From: Halobacteriovorax sp. JY17
Lineage (GTDB): Bacteria; Bdellovibrionota; Bacteriovoracia; Bacteriovoracales; Bacteriovoracaceae
DNA: 64,000 nt
Assembly (NCBI RefSeq): GCF_002753895.1
Contig: NZ_NJER01000001.1
Coordinates: 372,001 to 436,000 of the forward strand
Reading direction: 5' to 3'
Made by a program: the position numbers and the translations under genes. The number at the start of each line of letters is the position of its first letter. Within the stretch, counting starts at the first letter, position 1. Shown here piece by piece: positions 6,419-45,505 of this stretch. The notes beneath the pieces were generated by a model. That model was not told where the DNA came from. It saw only the letters and a program-made list of their open reading frames with translations, and searched no databases.

Positions 6419-6452
6419 ATTCAGTGATTTAGCCAATGATTCACAATTATTC

Positions 6453-6480
6453 TAAATAATATGGGTCTTTTGTCCGATAG
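6453..6480 (+). promoter_or_regulatory. Possible sigma-28-like promoter before the histidine kinase
   Basis: TAAATAAT at 6453-6460, a 12-base gap and TCCGATAG at 6473-6480 partly match the FliA consensus TAAAGTTT-N11-GCCGATAA. A start near 6487 would give a leader of about 20 bases carrying the CGGAG ribosome site. The -10 departs at two positions and the spacer is one base long, so this is tentative. Confidence 0.3.
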
Positions 6481-6506
6481 TCTAAGTAGGTTATTTCGGA
6501 GAAAAA

Positions 6507-7898
6507 ATGAATCAACGTGAGTTGTTACCAAAGAAATTAATCAGCTTTGCAATACTTATAAGTATGGTTTACTTAGTAGGGATTCTTTCGCTCACTATGC
6601 AGCTCTCATCTCAATTTGAGGCCATTCATAAGACACATCTTCCTTTATTAGAAATGAATGCTATCAATATTAGAATTGGTGACTCTCTTACAAGCAGAAC
6701 TAAGAACTTAATTTATGAATATAGCGAAAGGGGTTATGAAGAGTATCAAATTGATAAAGATTCTCTTGATTTTAACTTTAAAAGTTACTTACACACATTA
6801 AAGAGTTCAGGTGTATCTTCAAAGTTTAATAAAGATTTTAACCGAGATGCCCTCTATGAACTTGAAGATAGAATTCTAGCACTCGCTAAAGAGAAGAAGA
6901 AAGTTGAAGCACTTGATCTGATCACTAGTGATGAGTATAAATTAGAGCAAACTCATTTCTTAAACTCTATTCAGGGGATTGCTGAAAAATTAAGTGAGCA
7001 AAGAGATCTATTTTTAAAAGAGCAAGTTCGTATCATTCAATTAGAAATTCTCTTTTCTGCAATCACATTCGTTCTTATCACAATTGTTTGGTTGAAGGTT
7101 TATTTTTCCTATAGGAGAAATGTAAGGGATAGAAATAGGGCCTTAAATGAGCTAGAGCTTGAAAGAGTGAAGTCTTCTCATAATGCTAAAATGGCAAGTC
7201 TTGGTGAAATGGCCGCAGGTCTTGCCCATGAAATTAATAATCCTCTTGCAATCATTCAAGGTTTTTCTGAAAGACTTATGAGTCTTGTTGAAAGAGGAGA
7301 GTTTAGCGAAGAGAAAGTCGAAAGGTATGCAGATAAAATCTATAGTACTTCAAAGAGAATTAATCAGATGATCCAAGGTCTCAAGGTTTTCTCAAAGAAT
7401 AGTGGAGACAATTCTTTAGTTCTGTCTCCTGTTGAGGAAATTATTGAAGATACTCTAAGTTTTTGTAAAGAGCGGTTTAAGTCTAGTGGAATTGATCTCC
7501 ACCAAATTTGTGATGAAGAAGAAGATGTCTATATAATGGCAAGACCAGTTGAGATATCTCAAGTTCTACTTAATCTCTTAAATAATGCTTTTGATGAACT
7601 TCAAGATAGTGAATTAATTCATAGCTGGATTAAAATTGAAACAAAGCAAGATGATGATTTCGTCTATATCTGTGTTGCCGATAGTGGGCTAGGAATAACA
7701 GATGAAGTTAAAGAGAAGATATTCGATCCATTTTTTACGACGAAAGAAGGGTCTCACGGAACTGGGCTTGGATTAAGTATTTCAAGCTCTATTATTAAAA
7801 AGCACGGTGGAGAATTCTATCTTGATAATAGTGTCACAACAGAATTTATCATCAAGCTGCCTAGGCCTAAATTGAATTCAGATAGAAAGGCAGCCTGA
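6507..7898 (+). CDS. Membrane-bound sensor histidine kinase
   Basis: A 463-residue kinase. Membrane segments lie at about residues 11-32 and 178-200 and flank an all-helical periplasmic domain (about 35-175) rich in Glu, Lys and Leu, like four-helix-bundle sensors. A short coiled linker leads to HisKA with phospho-acceptor His241 in AGLAHEINNPLA. The ATPase domain has its N-box at NLLNNAFDE (about 356-364), G1 in DSGLG (392-396), the F-box DPFFTTK and G2 GTGLGLS (418-424). No response regulator is adjacent, so it is an orphan kinase. Its position behind the porin and the divergent PBP-like gene suggests the PBP-like protein presents a ligand to its periplasmic domain. That link is inference. 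Confidence 0.9.
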   Translation: MNQRELLPKKLISFAILISMVYLVGILSLTMQLSSQFEAIHKTHLPLLEMNAINIRIGDSLTSRTKNLIYEYSERGYEEYQIDKDSLDFNFKSYLHTLKSSGVSSKFNKDFNRDALYELEDRILALAKEKKKVEALDLITSDEYKLEQTHFLNSIQGIAEKLSEQRDLFLKEQVRIIQLEILFSAITFVLITIVWLKVYFSYRRNVRDRNRALNELELERVKSSHNAKMASLGEMAAGLAHEINNPLAIIQGFSERLMSLVERGEFSEEKVERYADKIYSTSKRINQMIQGLKVFSKNSGDNSLVLSPVEEIIEDTLSFCKERFKSSGIDLHQICDEEEDVYIMARPVEISQVLLNLLNNAFDELQDSELIHSWIKIETKQDDDFVYICVADSGLGITDEVKEKIFDPFFTTKEGSHGTGLGLSISSSIIKKHGGEFYLDNSVTTEFIIKLPRPKLNSDRKAA

Positions 7899-39308: not shown

Positions 39309-39881
39309 TCAGGTCGATTCTTGTAAGAATTTTAGGTCTTCGTAAAGCTCTTGATCTAATTCGTCGGTTTTTTCTTCGTTTTTAAGTGGTGTTGTAAGGA
39401 TTTTCTTTTTGTTAAGTTTAAACTTCCTTAAACTCTTATTAAAGCTAGTAACTTTCTTACTCTCTTTTGAATATTGTACTTCAAAGTTACTTCCATAATA
39501 AGCAGTAGGGTTGTCTCTAATATTTATAAGAACCCCAACTTTCTTTTTCTGGTATTCTTTGTCTCTGTATAATCTCAGGTGACCTCTTACTAAGCTTAGT
39601 AAGCGAATACCATCGGTTGTTGATTTTCTTAGAATTACTTGTGTATTTGGAGCTAGGATAACAGTACCAATGACTTCGTCGTTAAAGTCAATAACGGCCA
39701 TCCCTTTTGAATCTGTAGTTACAATTTCATTTGCGTAAAGTGGAGTTTGAATATCTATCTTTTCAACTTTCTGATTAAGGTTTGTGAATTTAAATGTATG
39801 ACCTTTAATATTTGTTAGAGTTATCATCGCCTGATTAGAAATAGATATGAAGAAAAATAGGGAGGTAAGTAAGAGCTTCAG
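39309..39881 (-). CDS. Secreted FecR-domain-like protein with a probable CTG start
   Basis: An exported protein of about 190 residues. The ATG at 39827 would give a 172-residue product without an export signal, yet 18 codons upstream in the same frame encode a perfect signal peptide (KLLLTSLFFFISISNQA). That segment has no ATG, GTG or TTG before the in-frame stop; the fitting initiator is CTG at 39881. The CTG overlaps the TGA of the upstream PilZ-GAF-AAA gene (CTGA), so initiation could be by termination-reinitiation. The mature part has a FecR-like beta region (ITLTNIKGHTFKF..., IVTTDSKGMAVIDF, LAPNTQVILRKS) at about 20-110 and a Lys-rich tail. FecR folds often bind ligands or peptidoglycan. 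Confidence 0.6.
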   Translation of the reverse strand: MKLLLTSLFFFISISNQAMITLTNIKGHTFKFTNLNQKVEKIDIQTPLYANEIVTTDSKGMAVIDFNDEVIGTVILAPNTQVILRKSTTDGIRLLSLVRGHLRLYRDKEYQKKKVGVLINIRDNPTAYYGSNFEVQYSKESKKVTSFNKSLRKFKLNKKKILTTPLKNEEKTDELDQELYEDLKFLQEST

Positions 39882-41584
39882 GATGCTTTCTTCTTTGTTA
39901 TAGAAGCATTAATCATTTCGATAATTTTATCTGGATGAATACTTGTATCTGCTGTGAAGATTAGCTTCTCTTCAATACTTTTAAAACCATGTAGCTCTTT
40001 TGTTTCTAACTCAATTGTTGCGGAAGTATTATTTGAGACCATAAAACTCTTTTTAATGAGCTTTTCTAGTTCTGTAATATTTCCTGGCCAATAGTGAGTG
40101 ATAATAAATTGCATACTCTCTGGACTTAACTCTCTTCGTGGGAGAGCTCTTTTTTCACATTCTATTTTTATGAAATAATTTGCAATGGTGAGAATATCAT
40201 CTCTTCTATTTCTTAGAGGAGTTAAGTGAAACCTCGATTGGGTTAATTTCTTAAATAAGGCCTTATGGAAAAAGCCCTTTTCAACTTCATATATAAGATC
40301 CTTACAGCTAGTCGTTATGAACTTACAGTCTTGAAATTGAATCCAGTTGAAAAGTTCACCTTGCTCACTTGTATTTAAGAAGTCTATATTCTTTAGTATG
40401 AGAGTTTGATCACAAGAAAAGTGCGGTGAATCTGTAATCATTCTCTTTAGATGACTTGGATCTTTACAATTGAAAATATCTTTTTCACTGTTATTTGATA
40501 GGTACTTTGCAAAGAACTCTTTCCCAAGTCCTTTTTCACCAATGATATTTACATTGGTCTTTCCATACTTTAATTTCTTTAATGTTGTTCTTATTGCCGA
40601 TGACTTTTGAGTGGAGCCAAAGTAAATAAAGGAATCTTTAAGCTCTGGGTTTAAATGGGCAATACTCGTAGACTTAGATTTGACAATGTAATTTAAAAAT
40701 TGTTTGGCAATAACTAGTGATAGAAATTGTCCCATATTCTCATCTGCAATAGAGAAGTGATCGCCTTTCTTATTATTAAACTGAAGCACTCCAATACACT
40801 TTCTCTCTTTATTTAGAAGTGGTAAGCAAAGAGTGTTTTTAAGTGTAAACTTATCCTCATCTCTCTCTTTAGGCTCTTTTAAAAAAGTATTAATACATCT
40901 TGAAGTCGTAAAGCATTTTCCAAGTTCTCCTTTGTTGAAGGAGTTGTCTTTGATATGGGTACAATGTGAATTGTGATAGATATTTTCTAGTTTGTCTTTT
41001 TCTATATTTATTTTCCATACTCTTACTTCTTCACAGTGAAGAAGGTGAGCGCACTCATCTAAGAGGTTGATAATTTCAGCAGCACTAAATTCTCTATAGA
41101 GAACATTTAGTAATCCAAATAGCTCAACTCCATCGTCAACATTAATCTCTCTAACTGAAAGCGAAGACTTGATGAGAAAGTCCTTTAATTTTTTTCCTGA
41201 GAAACCTGCTATATAGTCTGTAATAAAATACTTTAATTCAGATTCTTCTGATTGGTTTAGAAGTTCAACACCATAGTTATATGATTTATTTGGAGTGTTT
41301 TCTTGAAAGCTTCTGATTATGACACCATCTACTTCTAAGTCCCACTTATTAAAAATTTTCTTTGTGAAAACTTCTACTTTAATTTTAGTACCTATAGCGA
41401 TATGAACACTAGACTTAAACGACAAGCTAAAGAGGTTGAAATCAACCAAGCGAGTATCAGTACTCAAAGTCGTTCCTTTCTTATTTCCGTTCAGTAGTGA
41501 TATGCGCAGAAATATCTTATCGCTCTCTCCTGAGCGTACTCTGAAAGATCGGTAAAACTTAAAATTTGTTAGTCCATTTCCCAT
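39878..41584 (-). CDS. PilZ-GAF-degenerate sigma-54-type AAA+ protein (A)
   Basis: A 568-residue protein. N-terminal PilZ-like domain at about 1-125 (FYRSFRVRS, and a degenerate LVDFNLFSLSF in place of the NxSxxG block), GAF domain at about 185-310 (ENTLCLPLLNKERKCIGVLQF), and a C-terminal AAA+ remnant at about 330-500. Walker A (GEKGLGKEFFAKYL) is intact, but Walker B is LILKNID without the Asp-Glu pair. The segment with the GAFTGA loop is deleted and no Fis-type DNA-binding domain follows. The WPGNITELEK helix of the family remains. It thus cannot act as a normal sigma-54 activator. It shares an operon with the FecR-like gene and has a divergent paralogue. A regulatory scaffold role is inferred. 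Confidence 0.75.
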   Translation of the reverse strand: MGNGLTNFKFYRSFRVRSGESDKIFLRISLLNGNKKGTTLSTDTRLVDFNLFSLSFKSSVHIAIGTKIKVEVFTKKIFNKWDLEVDGVIIRSFQENTPNKSYNYGVELLNQSEESELKYFITDYIAGFSGKKLKDFLIKSSLSVREINVDDGVELFGLLNVLYREFSAAEIINLLDECAHLLHCEEVRVWKINIEKDKLENIYHNSHCTHIKDNSFNKGELGKCFTTSRCINTFLKEPKERDEDKFTLKNTLCLPLLNKERKCIGVLQFNNKKGDHFSIADENMGQFLSLVIAKQFLNYIVKSKSTSIAHLNPELKDSFIYFGSTQKSSAIRTTLKKLKYGKTNVNIIGEKGLGKEFFAKYLSNNSEKDIFNCKDPSHLKRMITDSPHFSCDQTLILKNIDFLNTSEQGELFNWIQFQDCKFITTSCKDLIYEVEKGFFHKALFKKLTQSRFHLTPLRNRRDDILTIANYFIKIECEKRALPRRELSPESMQFIITHYWPGNITELEKLIKKSFMVSNNTSATIELETKELHGFKSIEEKLIFTADTSIHPDKIIEMINASITKKKAS

Positions 41585-41591
41585 AGATTAT

Positions 41592-41618
41592 TTATCGGTT
41601 TTTTTAGTGCAGAGTTTA
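41592..41618 (-). promoter_or_regulatory. Sigma-28-like promoter of PilZ-GAF-AAA gene A, predicted leaderless
   Basis: On the minus strand TAAACTCT, an 11-base spacer and ACCGATAA match the FliA consensus TAAAGTTT-N11-GCCGATAA at six of eight and seven of eight positions. The ATG at 41584 lies seven bases beyond the -10 element, so the transcript would begin at the start codon. Confidence 0.6.
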
Positions 41619-41643
41619 AGTAAAAAGAGGGACTTTCCGATAA
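41617..41643 (+). promoter_or_regulatory. Sigma-28-like promoter of PilZ-GAF-AAA gene B
   Basis: TAAGTAAA at 41617-41624, an 11-base spacer and TCCGATAA at 41636-41643. The -10 matches FliA consensus at seven of eight positions; the -35 is weaker. Its -35 overlaps that of the opposing promoter by two bases. A start near 41650 would give a short leader with AGGAAG nine bases before the ATG. Confidence 0.5.
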
Positions 41644-41674
41644 ATAAAGAGACTCAATTAGGAAGTAGATATCC

Positions 41675-43540
41675 ATGAATAACATTGTGAAATTAAAGTC
41701 TTACCGATCTTTTAGAATTCCTGTGGACGAGGGAGATAAGATAAGTATGCAAATTCTCAAGTATAATGGGAATACAGTGGATTATCAGAGCTCTGCTTGG
41801 AAGTTATCAAATGTGAGTCTTTCTGGTGTGGCCTTTGAATCGAACTTAGATTTTGAGATTGATAGCGTCCTAGAGTTAGACTTTAGATTTAAGAATTTTT
41901 CCTTTCATGTTTCTTCAAAAGTTGCGAGGGTCATTCCAAAGTATAATGTCTTCGGAGAAGTGGAGAGTTATCTCTATGGTATGGAGTTCTATACAGAAGA
42001 CCAAGAAAATGGAAAAGAGTTTATCTCCTCATTTATTTCTAGCTTTAATACAAGAAGACTGAAGAAGCATTTAATTAGCCTTTTAATTAACGAGAGTCGT
42101 ATAAACACTTTTAGTGATGGTCAAAAATTATCTCTTTCTCTTTCTTTATTTCTAGATATGAAGCAATTTAAAGGAATCAGTGATTTTCTAAAAGTTGTAT
42201 TTAAAGAATGTTGCCGCTTTTCTCATTCAGAAGTGGGTAAGATTTTTCTTTTAAATAAAAAGAAAGATACACTCTATAATTACGATATTGAAAAAGAGGA
42301 ATTCTATAAGTATTCAACGCTTGAAAATCAAAACCTCGCTAATGAAGTTTTGGCGCAAAAGTCATTTAAGATAATCAGATCCTCTGGCTCCTTAAACTTA
42401 GATAATTTTCCTTCTATGCCTTTAAATAAGAAAGGGGAAGATTACTCAAGTGCTCTCTACTTTCCTGTCTTAGATTCTCAGGGAAAGGCCTGTGGTTTCT
42501 TTGAATTTATAATTTTTGATAAAAATAAGAGTTATAGCGAAAGAGATTTATCCGCAATTGAACTCTTTAGTAATATTTTTACACTTTGTTTTGGAGATTT
42601 AGATAAGACTGAATTTGTCTCTCACCTTGAAGATGATATTGGATATGTTGATACGTCTAAAATGGTGGGAAGAAGTAAGGACATTGATATTGTCGATGAA
42701 TTTATTCATGGGCAGGGATCTCATATCGAAAATGTCTTAATAGAAGGAAGCCATGGAGTAGGAAAAGTACATATTGGAAAGAGTATTCATCATAATAGTG
42801 CCACTAGGAAAATGCCTATTGGTACAATTCACTGTGAATCAATTTTAGACGAGGCTGACCTGTCTCTTCAACTGAAAGGTGATTCCGAACATGTGGGAAA
42901 ATTGGAATTATACTCTGGAGGCTCTCTTGTAATTCATGAACCATCAGTTCTTAATCAAACTTGTCAACGAGAACTCCTCTCTATCTTAAAACAGAGGACA
43001 GATATTAGATTGATTTCAACCTCTACAATTTCTTTAATTGAGGAATGTGATAGTGGAAGATTTGATAGAGAACTTTATGAGTTTCTTTCAAAGAGTTATT
43101 TCTATGTCCCAGATTTAAAAGATAGAAAGGAAGATATTCCATGTTTAGTTAATCACTTCTTAGATCTTCTTTGTTCTCAGTATGGACTTCCGTCGAAGAG
43201 AGTTTCTGAATTTGTTATGGAGACATTTGAGGATTATTCTTGGCCAGGAAATATTGAAGAATTAAAAGTTACAACTGAAAGACTAATTAATTACTACCCA
43301 TACCTTCGTTATTTAGATGATTTACCACAAAAGGAATTTCCGATTATCGGAGAGTATCCTCGCCAAAGTGGAGTTATCTCTGAAATTATAAAAGATGCTT
43401 CTCATGAAATTAATTTGAGTGCTGTGAAAGAGGGAATAATCTCTAACTATTGTAAGGCACAGGGAATCTCTAGAGAAGAGTATGACAAGATTTACTTAGA
43501 GAGCTCTAGACTACCTGCTGAAGACAAGTTGGCGTCCTAG
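41675..43540 (+). CDS. PilZ-GAF-degenerate sigma-54-type AAA+ protein (B)
   Basis: A 621-residue paralogue of the divergent protein A. PilZ domain at about 1-125, with LKSYRSFRIPV and a well preserved KLSNVSLSGVAFES (NxSxxG type); GAF domain at about 180-310 (SALYFPVLDSQGKACGFFEF); AAA+ remnant at about 335-530. Walker A is altered (GSHGVGKVHIGKS), Walker B reads GSLVIHEPS, and the GAFTGA loop is absent because only a short segment separates them. WPGNIEELK and the KDRKEDIPCLVNHFL block of sigma-54 activators remain. The C-terminal 90 residues have no clear Fis helix-turn-helix. With the sigma-28-like promoter, this suggests a c-di-GMP or ligand-linked motility regulator; nucleotide binding is untested. 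Confidence 0.75.
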   Translation: MNNIVKLKSYRSFRIPVDEGDKISMQILKYNGNTVDYQSSAWKLSNVSLSGVAFESNLDFEIDSVLELDFRFKNFSFHVSSKVARVIPKYNVFGEVESYLYGMEFYTEDQENGKEFISSFISSFNTRRLKKHLISLLINESRINTFSDGQKLSLSLSLFLDMKQFKGISDFLKVVFKECCRFSHSEVGKIFLLNKKKDTLYNYDIEKEEFYKYSTLENQNLANEVLAQKSFKIIRSSGSLNLDNFPSMPLNKKGEDYSSALYFPVLDSQGKACGFFEFIIFDKNKSYSERDLSAIELFSNIFTLCFGDLDKTEFVSHLEDDIGYVDTSKMVGRSKDIDIVDEFIHGQGSHIENVLIEGSHGVGKVHIGKSIHHNSATRKMPIGTIHCESILDEADLSLQLKGDSEHVGKLELYSGGSLVIHEPSVLNQTCQRELLSILKQRTDIRLISTSTISLIEECDSGRFDRELYEFLSKSYFYVPDLKDRKEDIPCLVNHFLDLLCSQYGLPSKRVSEFVMETFEDYSWPGNIEELKVTTERLINYYPYLRYLDDLPQKEFPIIGEYPRQSGVISEIIKDASHEINLSAVKEGIISNYCKAQGISREEYDKIYLESSRLPAEDKLAS

Positions 43541-43702: not shown

Positions 43703-45505
43703 ATGAAAACTAGAAAGACTATCATTTATTTATTAGCTCTATGTTTCTATATCTCAGGAACATTACCTCTTGCTGCTGATGATCTAGAGGGGACGGGTGA
43801 GCCAATTCAAACTGAGGTGTCTGCAGGGAATTGCCCTAGTGGACTTATTTGGAATGAGCATATTAAGGATTGCCTGAACTCTGAAGATGATAACCGTGTA
43901 AATGAAAAGCAGAGAATGTGTGACTCAAAAGCAGATGGTCCCGCAAAAGATGAATGTAATGAAATGGTTCAAAGTTTTGATAAGGACCCGAAGAAATATG
44001 TAAGTTCAACTAAAGTCGATACATCAAGTAAGGAAAAGAGTTTAAAGAAAATAAGTACAGCTAAGTCTGTTGTAGGAGGCGCTATTGCCGCCTATAAGTT
44101 ATTTGAAGCCTATAATGCTGCTAAGAGTGCTAAAGATGTTTTTAGTAATATGTGTATTTCAGGAATGATGTCTATTGCTACAGGTGTAATGTCATTTATG
44201 AATGATAGAAATATGGACAAGCAAGTAAAGGAAACTTTAAAAGCCGCTAAAGCGAATCTTGATGCGTTATTAAAAGAGAATGAGCGTTCAAAGGGAACGA
44301 CATACGAGATGCAAATTAAATTAATGCAGGCCTATAAGCAAATCTTAGAAGCTGGGGCACAAGCCGCTCAAATTAGAGAAGATGGTTATAAGCAGGAAGT
44401 TATGATGTACTCAATTGCTCTAGGTATTGCAGCGATTGAAATAGTTGTTTATTCTATTCCTCCTGTTGCAGCTGCAGCTGCTGATAAAATTAAGTGTGCA
44501 GGTTGGGTTGCAGGAAGTGCGACTATTTCTGTTGTTCTTGGAAGTAAGATGAAGAGTGCAGCTTCTAAGGCGAGAGAGAAGTATGAATCAGAAGCTAAGA
44601 AGCTTGATAAAATACTTCAGAAGTATATGGACTTCTTTAATAAGAAACATATTGATCAACAATCTCTTGCAATGAAAATGGCCCTTAGTTCAAATTCCGC
44701 AGCTCCTATTAATGCGAAGAGTGGAAGTGGGGCAGATCAATTCTCCAATAAGAATTTAACTGAAGCTGAAAAGAATATGTGTGAGGCCGCTCCTGCAACT
44801 AGCTGTTGTAATGATTCAGGAAAGAAGTGTCCAACTTTTAATATCTCTATAGGAAACCCTACTATTTCTTCGGCCATTGGAAAATCTGACCTTGGAGGAG
44901 CTCTTGATCGTGCGGACTCGAGACTTCAGGGATCTTTAAACTTAAATGATAGTGGTGTTAGTCTAGCAATAAATAAAGACCTAAAAAGAGCGAAGGCCTT
45001 TAAGCAGAGAGTTCTTAAGCAATTGACAGATAAGAATCGCTTAGGTGCCGCTCAGGCCGAACTCTTTGATGAGAGTAAACAAATGAAAGCATTTCTAAAG
45101 TCTAATTATGGTAATGAAAATGCGAGACTTGGATCTTCGTTCGGTGAGAGTATGGCACTACCAGATGTTGATAGAGTTGCTAAAATCTTAGATAAGAGTG
45201 ATGTTCCAAAGGAATTAAGTAAAGAAAAGAAGAATCTCTCTTCTTCATTAAGTGCTCTATCTGCTCTAGCAAAGATGAGAAACTCTTTAAACGATTTGTC
45301 CTTAGAAGATGAGGATGAGTCTAAGAATGGGGCATTTGACGGTGGAGACCTTGCTGCGAATTCAGGCCTAGGTGAAGGTGAGGAGTATATCTACGATAGA
45401 GATCAAATAGTTGAGAAGCCAGAAGTTTCAATTTTTCAAGTAATAAGTAATAGGTATAATGTACTTCGAATTAATAAGAGGTTTGGACAAAGAGCAAATA
45501 ATTAA
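43703..45505 (+). CDS. Secreted/membrane hypothetical protein with alanine-rich hydrophobic segments
   Basis: A 600-residue protein with a signal peptide (about 1-24, IIYLLALCFYISGTLPLAA). Early cysteines occur in GNCPSGLIWNEHIKDCLN, like a small disulfide module. Two hydrophobic helices lie at about 120-170 and 232-280 (VMMYSIALGIAAIEIVVYSI and GWVAGSATISVVLGSKM), separated by a long charged helix (KAAKANLDALLKENER). Later come TSCCNDSGKKCPTFNIS with four cysteines and a helical C-terminus. The pattern resembles a family of large exported proteins frequent in Bdellovibrionota; I cannot name it. It has its own ribosome site (AAGGTGAG) and a strong bidirectional terminator. A role in envelope or prey interaction is only a possibility. 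Confidence 0.65.
   Translation: MKTRKTIIYLLALCFYISGTLPLAADDLEGTGEPIQTEVSAGNCPSGLIWNEHIKDCLNSEDDNRVNEKQRMCDSKADGPAKDECNEMVQSFDKDPKKYVSSTKVDTSSKEKSLKKISTAKSVVGGAIAAYKLFEAYNAAKSAKDVFSNMCISGMMSIATGVMSFMNDRNMDKQVKETLKAAKANLDALLKENERSKGTTYEMQIKLMQAYKQILEAGAQAAQIREDGYKQEVMMYSIALGIAAIEIVVYSIPPVAAAAADKIKCAGWVAGSATISVVLGSKMKSAASKAREKYESEAKKLDKILQKYMDFFNKKHIDQQSLAMKMALSSNSAAPINAKSGSGADQFSNKNLTEAEKNMCEAAPATSCCNDSGKKCPTFNISIGNPTISSAIGKSDLGGALDRADSRLQGSLNLNDSGVSLAINKDLKRAKAFKQRVLKQLTDKNRLGAAQAELFDESKQMKAFLKSNYGNENARLGSSFGESMALPDVDRVAKILDKSDVPKELSKEKKNLSSSLSALSALAKMRNSLNDLSLEDEDESKNGAFDGGDLAANSGLGEGEEYIYDRDQIVEKPEVSIFQVISNRYNVLRINKRFGQRANN

Follow-up and report, generated by a model that had tools for sequence, protein, structure and literature searches.

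What can two relatives of sigma54 enhancer-binding proteins (EBPs) do for a predatory bacterium once contact with sigma54 has been lost, and DNA binding has been lost or nearly lost as well? This question is raised by a divergent pair of genes, here called A and B, in a 64,000-nucleotide stretch of DNA (the window; G000:C1:372001-436000 of a 3.47-Mb genome). The first-pass annotation had described A, B and a secreted FecR-like protein as a possible three-gene signalling device, and we located all three genes as it had placed them. A and B are separated by an intergenic gap of 90 bp, and the gene for the small exported protein follows A. An Rfam search of the window returned no RNA family. The features are as follows.

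39309-39881, minus strand: FecR-like exported protein of ~190 aa, with a Sec-type signal peptide and a probable CTG start
39878-41584, minus strand: protein A (568 aa), with a degenerate PilZ-like barrel, a GAF domain, an AAA+ core lacking GAFTGA and a lid, but no Fis domain; ends in KKKAS
39881-39898, minus strand: C-terminal tail of A, TKKKAS, degron-like
40214-40621, minus strand: AAA+ core of A, with Walker A retained (GEKGLGKE), KN at Walker B, and neither GAFTGA nor arginine fingers
41593-41619, minus strand: predicted FliA-type promoter of A, TTAAA-N16-CCGATA; the -10 element ends 8 nt before the ATG
41616-41642, plus strand: predicted FliA-type promoter of B, TTAAG-N16-CCGATA; the -35 element overlaps the -35 element of A
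41675-43540, plus strand: protein B (621 aa), with PilZ and GAF-like domains, an AAA+ core lacking GAFTGA, a lid and a decayed Fis remnant; ends in DKLAS
41702-42040, plus strand: PilZ domain of B; RxxR and NVSLSG kept
42671-43117, plus strand: AAA+ core of B, with GSHGVGKV as P-loop, HE at Walker B, and neither GAFTGA nor arginine fingers
43415-43537, plus strand: C-terminal Fis-domain remnant of B and its [AV][AS] tail
43703-45505, plus strand: neighbouring exported 600-aa protein, 3' of B; associated with the pair, a candidate member only

Pfam searches placed a sigma54-type AAA+ domain and its lid above cut-off in both A and B, and a PilZ domain above cut-off in B. The same genome encodes a third full-length relative, C (645 aa), whose PilZ, GAF, AAA+, lid and Fis HTH_8 domains all exceed the Pfam cut-offs. 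Since relatives in the C family likewise show PilZ, GAF, AAA+, lid and HTH_8, the domain order of the family is that of an EBP, which supports what had been proposed for A and B. AlphaFold models of the two proteins (mean pLDDT 78 for A and 77 for B) contain a beta-barrel, a GAF-like domain, an AAA+ core and a lid. Matches to AAA+ domains fill the structure-match lists of both models, and include NtrX, NtrC, FleQ, FlrC and VpsR, with Z-scores of about 25-26 for B and about 20 for A; the GAF fold of A matches that of PDE10A (Z 15.6).

The sigma54-contacting GAFTGA loop, which had been reported missing from both proteins, is absent from every sequence that we aligned (16/16 A, 17/17 B and 51/51 C; the corresponding columns of one C sequence contain two stray residues), and throughout the same set both arginine fingers are replaced. 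A Walker B aspartate remains in 2/16 A, none of 17 B and 4/51 C sequences, and a sensor II arginine in 0/16, 4/17 and 4/51, respectively. The earlier claim that the Walker B acidic pair is lost holds for A of the window, where KN leaves neither acid, but B of the window (HE) keeps its glutamate. Similarly, only one protein was thought to have a Walker A motif; A of the window does keep GEKGLGKE, but B also has a P-loop, GSHGVGKV. Across the families the P-loop is intact in 51/51 C, 15/17 B (G..G.GK) and 9/16 A sequences, and in A it is kept in the window's genus (g1) and lost in g16 and g35.

The PilZ domain is best preserved in B. Thirteen of the 17 B sequences match the PilZ profile, as against 1 of 16 A sequences and not A of the window, in which the PilZ serine is replaced by asparagine and the glycine is lost. 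The serine, glycine and two arginines are kept in every B sequence of its alignments, and C as a rule retains one arginine. The PilZ core of B, which had been called intact, has the N-x-S-x-x-G motif, but its arginine motif reads R-x-x-R and not the canonical RxxxR. The claimed absence of a Fis domain is true of A; B carries a decayed remnant that is clear in one genus only (hhalign probability 92.8% in g35, 6-10% elsewhere and 10% for the window protein), and the HTH_8 of C is intact. Complete loss of DNA binding can thus be claimed for A only, the Fis domain being decayed in B and intact in C.

Because the loss of GAFTGA is common to the order-wide C family, it predates the pair, and contact with sigma54 was, judging from these alignments, most likely lost before the pair arose. 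As the alignments read, A went on to lose its Fis domain and the greater part of its PilZ motif; in B the PilZ motif and the Fis remnant were kept. The retained parts vary among genera, however, which tells against the proposal that A and B decayed asymmetrically so that each subunit supplies a different function. The P-loop of A is gone in g16 and g35 yet present in g1, so a division of labour is not conserved, and we rejected complementary decay.

How widely are the two genes conserved? The A/B pair occurs in 17 genomes from five genera (g1, g3, g16, g35 and g44), where A and B are always side by side and divergent; a search of 325 genomes of the phylum, with these 17 pair genomes, found none with A or B alone. 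In the same 325 genomes a PilZ-GAF profile gave strong full-length matches only within the same order; the other matches listed were partial and confined to the GAF region, so that a weak distant relative may be missed. A search for related loci with the full-length alignment returned mainly ordinary EBPs. By comparison C, which is essentially single-copy, is present in nearly all genomes of the order, and the relatives compared are 50-71% identical to C of the window genome. In a tree of the three families, A, B and C each form one side of a branch, with support of 99, 98 and 100, and the A and B sequences evolve faster than C. C thus shares with A and B its full-length homology, a FliA-like promoter and a C-terminal [AV][AS], and differs from them as a slow-evolving single gene with intact P-loop and Fis domain. 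C directly precedes cdaA (diadenylate cyclase) in nearly every locus checked, and at loci L083, L133, L135-L138, L141 and L142 cdaA is mostly followed by ybbR/cdaR, glmM and pdxJ; this neighbourhood hints at a link of C to c-di-AMP or the cell wall.

In g1, g3 and g16 the pair is flanked by an enoyl-CoA hydratase gene (ECH) and trxB, and in g35 and g44 it adjoins the same hydratase gene. We examined 12 pair-less genomes with a usable stretch, and in eight the hydratase gene and trxB lie close together without the pair, separated by a gap of ~90-210 bp in six, by one unrelated gene in one and by two unrelated genes in one; the remaining four have a different neighbourhood around these genes. 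Mapped on the C tree, whose deep branches are weak, this distribution requires at least four changes of pair presence. We read this as one old cassette at one site, since lost or moved several times. As part of the tentative explanation developed below, A and B may have been derived by duplication from the same ancestor as C.

The loss of many catalytic motifs, and the faster evolution of A and B relative to C, would also be expected if the pair were decaying duplicate DNA without function. This reading is scarcely credible: pN/pS is 0.13-0.17 for A and 0.20-0.21 for B, within the range of housekeeping neighbours and with synonymous sites near saturation, reading frames are open in all loci not cut by contig ends, and promoters and tails are conserved. 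Because pN/pS points to purifying selection, we rejected pseudogene drift. The co-conservation that the first-pass annotation had anticipated is therefore borne out, and since neither singly occurring genes nor an intact GAFTGA turned up, the pair itself stands. Within the literature searched, A and B are a real, conserved and apparently undescribed pair, and a variant of EBP-like proteins without sigma54 contact.

Both genes are preceded by sites of the flagellar type, as had been noted, and these sites are conserved in relatives. Of 140 attack-phase promoters mapped in Bdellovibrio, 92 carry the FliA site TTAAG-N16-CCGATA (PMC3627812). The B promoter is an exact copy of this Bdellovibrio consensus, and the A promoter is its TTAAA variant. 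The 3.47-Mb genome contains 11 TTAAR-N16-CCGATA sites, among them the A and B promoters, and three matches to the reversed pattern. Averaged over 16 loci, the best FliA scores on the two strands are 9.9 and 10.3, against 7.8 and 7.7 (sd 0.2) in a control of 1000 dinucleotide shuffles per strand, in which 0/1000 reached as high a score. C promoters are FliA-like as well (mean 9.5 versus 7.7 shuffled). A stricter pattern, TAAA-N14-16-[GC]CCGATAA, gave only seven sites, mostly not before clear genes, and was set aside for the published attack-phase consensus.

The geometry of the two promoters is also conserved. Their -35 elements overlap or lie within 2 bp of each other in 13/17 loci, and in 12 of those 13 the two -10 elements are 36-41 bp apart; given the overlap, one polymerase should exclude the other. 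In all five species of g1, only 7-8 nt separate the -10 element of A from its start codon (window 41584-41598), and from this distance we predict a leaderless mRNA. Genes for FliA and for six flagellins are present in the genome, and TAAA-N15-GGCGATAA, which has the same -35/-10 form, stands before two of the flagellin copies. Elsewhere in the window, a histidine kinase gene (6507-7898) that ends in RKAA has a FliA-like site, TAAA-N16-TCCGATAG, ~26 nt upstream (within 6450-6506). At the level of sequence, the assignment of the A and B sites as attack-phase promoters is strongly supported, and A and B would then be transcribed by FliA during prey hunting.

The second shared feature of A, B and C is found at their C-termini. 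Of the sequences compared, 11/16 A, 15/17 B and 38/39 C (64/72) end in [AV][AS], compared to 1 of 196 neighbouring genes; the 72 tails are related, and thus do not count as 72 independent events. The linker before these residues varies in length and sequence while the end residues are conserved: in C, 18 to 36 otherwise poorly conserved residues follow the Fis helix, and pLDDT is low at the tail of B. A C-terminal AA is a known ClpXP degron, described in Caulobacter (PMC11034885), and the tmRNA tag of the window genome, AESNDYAMPMAA, ends in AA. These comparisons suggest that the [AV][AS] tails of A, B and C may be a tag for ClpXP-type proteolysis.

Similar tails end other signalling proteins of the genome. 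Based on pattern matches and sampled stretches, KK[AV][AS]-stop occurs at 26 sites versus 18 for the reversed pattern, and about 12 of the 26 end plausible genes, where ~1 is expected from composition. These tails include KKAA in CheW (C1:1636918, L246), KKAS in a chemoreceptor (C3:356026, L258) and KKAS in two HD-GYP proteins (C3:72100, L253; C4:192234, L261), and related endings are found in FliA (MAS; C2:666197, L121), in the histidine kinase of the window (RKAA) and in CheA (KVA), whose gene adjoins cheW. In a second species, G043, all six tail proteins with a caught orthologue keep the tail, with changed letters. G043 also encodes a ClpX-like protein, recognised by eye (L262:15891-17201); it is located ~6 kb from cheW and cheA, and its own last residues are SAS. 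It is possible, though doubtful, that an [AV][AS] tail, in most cases preceded by lysine or arginine, targets a group of attack-phase signalling proteins to ClpXP. The regulatory proteome of the hunting phase would then be switched on via FliA and wiped out by proteolysis on prey entry, with A and B as lineage-specific, DNA-binding-free co-regulators within it.

The FecR-like protein turned out to be less constant than A and B. Its reading frame begins upstream of the annotated start, probably at a CTG (39879-39881) that overlaps the stop codon of A (CTGA), and this extension adds the signal peptide. Of five species, three have CTG as the probable start and one has ATG; at L067 there is no standard start codon. 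The protein is exported, as claimed, and FecR-like through its relatives (2/7 homologues match PF04773, best 1.8e-5), but it does not itself match PF04773. The gene is absent from the pair locus in g3 and g16. In g35 and g44 the FecR-like part forms the N-terminal portion of a ~670-aa protein; the C-terminal half of this larger protein, judged by eye, resembles an outer-membrane barrel, and it has no Pfam match. There, the FecR-barrel gene adjoins a LolA_like gene, and the two are co-directional with A and separated by short gaps (L073:3657-6543, L080:1666-4464 and L082:2770-5605); together they are a possible envelope lipid or lipoprotein trafficking module. The proposed three-gene device does not survive this comparison, and since the FecR-like gene is missing beside the pair in g3 and g16, we consider its product an associate and not a required part. 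On the other side of the pair, the 600-aa protein has homologues in the corresponding position in g35 and g44, which are exported repeat proteins of 1.7-2.1 kaa, with decapeptide repeats and cysteine modules (L073:10279-15516, L082:9183-15500), and the g1 protein is a short form (window 43703-45505). This family is found in 14/17 pair genomes and 8/112 others, a count confounded by kinship and search sensitivity.

The explanation we favour, tentatively and with somewhat less than even confidence, is that A and B are attack-phase co-regulators without sigma54 contact, with DNA binding lost in A and nearly lost in B, that are removed by proteolysis. GAFTGA-less EBPs that act without sigma54 include R. 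capsulatus NtrC, Caulobacter NtrC and VpsR (PMC10274813), and C, without GAFTGA and the catalytic arginines, should act like these: it would bind DNA and nucleotide, with no remodelling of sigma54 polymerase. FliA (sigma28) would transcribe A and B; as the -35 elements of their promoters overlap, the site would admit a single polymerase at any moment, and both proteins would be made in the same phase, free swimming. As the Fis domain is lost in A or nearly lost in B, the two most likely work by protein contact, and we propose that they would pair with each other and/or with C through AAA+ and GAF faces. They would alter the activity of C, and presumably its target genes, in response to a PilZ ligand (B only, probably c-di-GMP) and a GAF ligand. 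If their [AV][AS] C-termini are ClpXP-type degrons, A and B would vanish at the end of the attack phase. Several observations weigh against parts of this explanation: the contact with C we infer outright, and C occurs in many genomes without A and B, which lie far from it; PilZ of B is without the canonical RxxxR; the remnant might still let B of the window bind DNA; and tails ending in AS are less classical than LAA.

The main rival, somewhat unlikely in our judgement, has nothing to do with transcription: A and B would act post-translationally on motility or surface structures, as YcgR-like c-di-GMP effectors fused to a scaffolding AAA+ ring. Neither protein has a working DNA-binding domain, PilZ is best kept in B, the FliA promoters tie the pair to flagellar timing, and exported and envelope proteins lie at the locus in g1, g35 and g44, all of which would suit such a role. 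The close kinship with C, whose Fis domain is intact, and the Fis remnant of B in several genera argue against it, and neither fusions nor synteny with genes for flagella or gliding turned up. The invariable co-occurrence and co-orientation of A and B, and in the window's genus the canonical EBP P-loop of A beside the PilZ motif of B, speak for the model of the first-pass annotation, an obligate A-B hetero-oligomer with ATP binding by A, c-di-GMP sensing by B and the exported FecR-like protein as signalling partner. We consider this rather improbable, given that A has lost its P-loop in g16 and g35, that B keeps one nearly everywhere, and that the locus is without the FecR gene in g3 and g16. 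A slim chance also attaches to the pair serving the cell-surface cassette at the locus (FecR/barrel, LolA-like and long repeat protein), as local regulators or ATP-dependent assembly helpers. In g35 and g44, A, the LolA-like gene and the FecR-barrel gene are indeed co-directional with short gaps and the long repeat protein adjoins B, and the 600-aa family is enriched in pair genomes. However, phylogeny and search sensitivity confound that count, and in g3 and g16 the pair persists without these genes, the 600-aa homologues lying elsewhere.

The family traces a two-step route in which an EBP first loses sigma54 contact, here in the common ancestor of the three families, and later DNA binding, in A and B, while still under selection. 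For the favoured reading of A and B as attack-phase co-regulators, the wider interest lies in how predatory bacteria leave the attack phase quickly, which is not yet settled. On the transcriptional side the part of FliA is known from Bdellovibrio, we found no account of a proteolytic side in the literature searched, and the conserved tails make a proteolytic exit directly testable.

A and B resemble the GAFTGA-less EBPs R. capsulatus NtrC, Caulobacter NtrC and V. cholerae VpsR in having an EBP-type AAA+ core without the sigma54 loop, and their models match VpsR with Z-scores of 19 (A) and 25 (B). VpsR responds to c-di-GMP, as proposed for B. R. capsulatus NtrC, Caulobacter NtrC and VpsR have receiver-type domains and an intact Fis domain; in contrast, A and B have PilZ and GAF before the AAA+ core, and have lost Fis wholly (A) or nearly so (B). 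The flagellar master regulators FleQ and FlrA-FlrC share with the pair the AAA+ fold (B versus FleQ, Z 25.8) and a link to flagella and c-di-GMP, but A and B have neither GAFTGA nor arginine fingers, and are predicted to act downstream of FliA, whereas FleQ and FlrA-FlrC stand at the top of the flagellar cascade. The closest parallel for the tails is the swarmer-to-stalked transition of Caulobacter, a cell-cycle switch in which the ClpXP substrates CtrA, TacA, PdeA, McpA and McpB, comprising transcription factors, a c-di-GMP phosphodiesterase and chemoreceptors, are removed as the cell changes its life stage (PMC8973945, PMC11034885). Degradation of A and B is predicted from their tails alone; if the shared-tail reading is true, a Caulobacter-like design would be at work in a predator.
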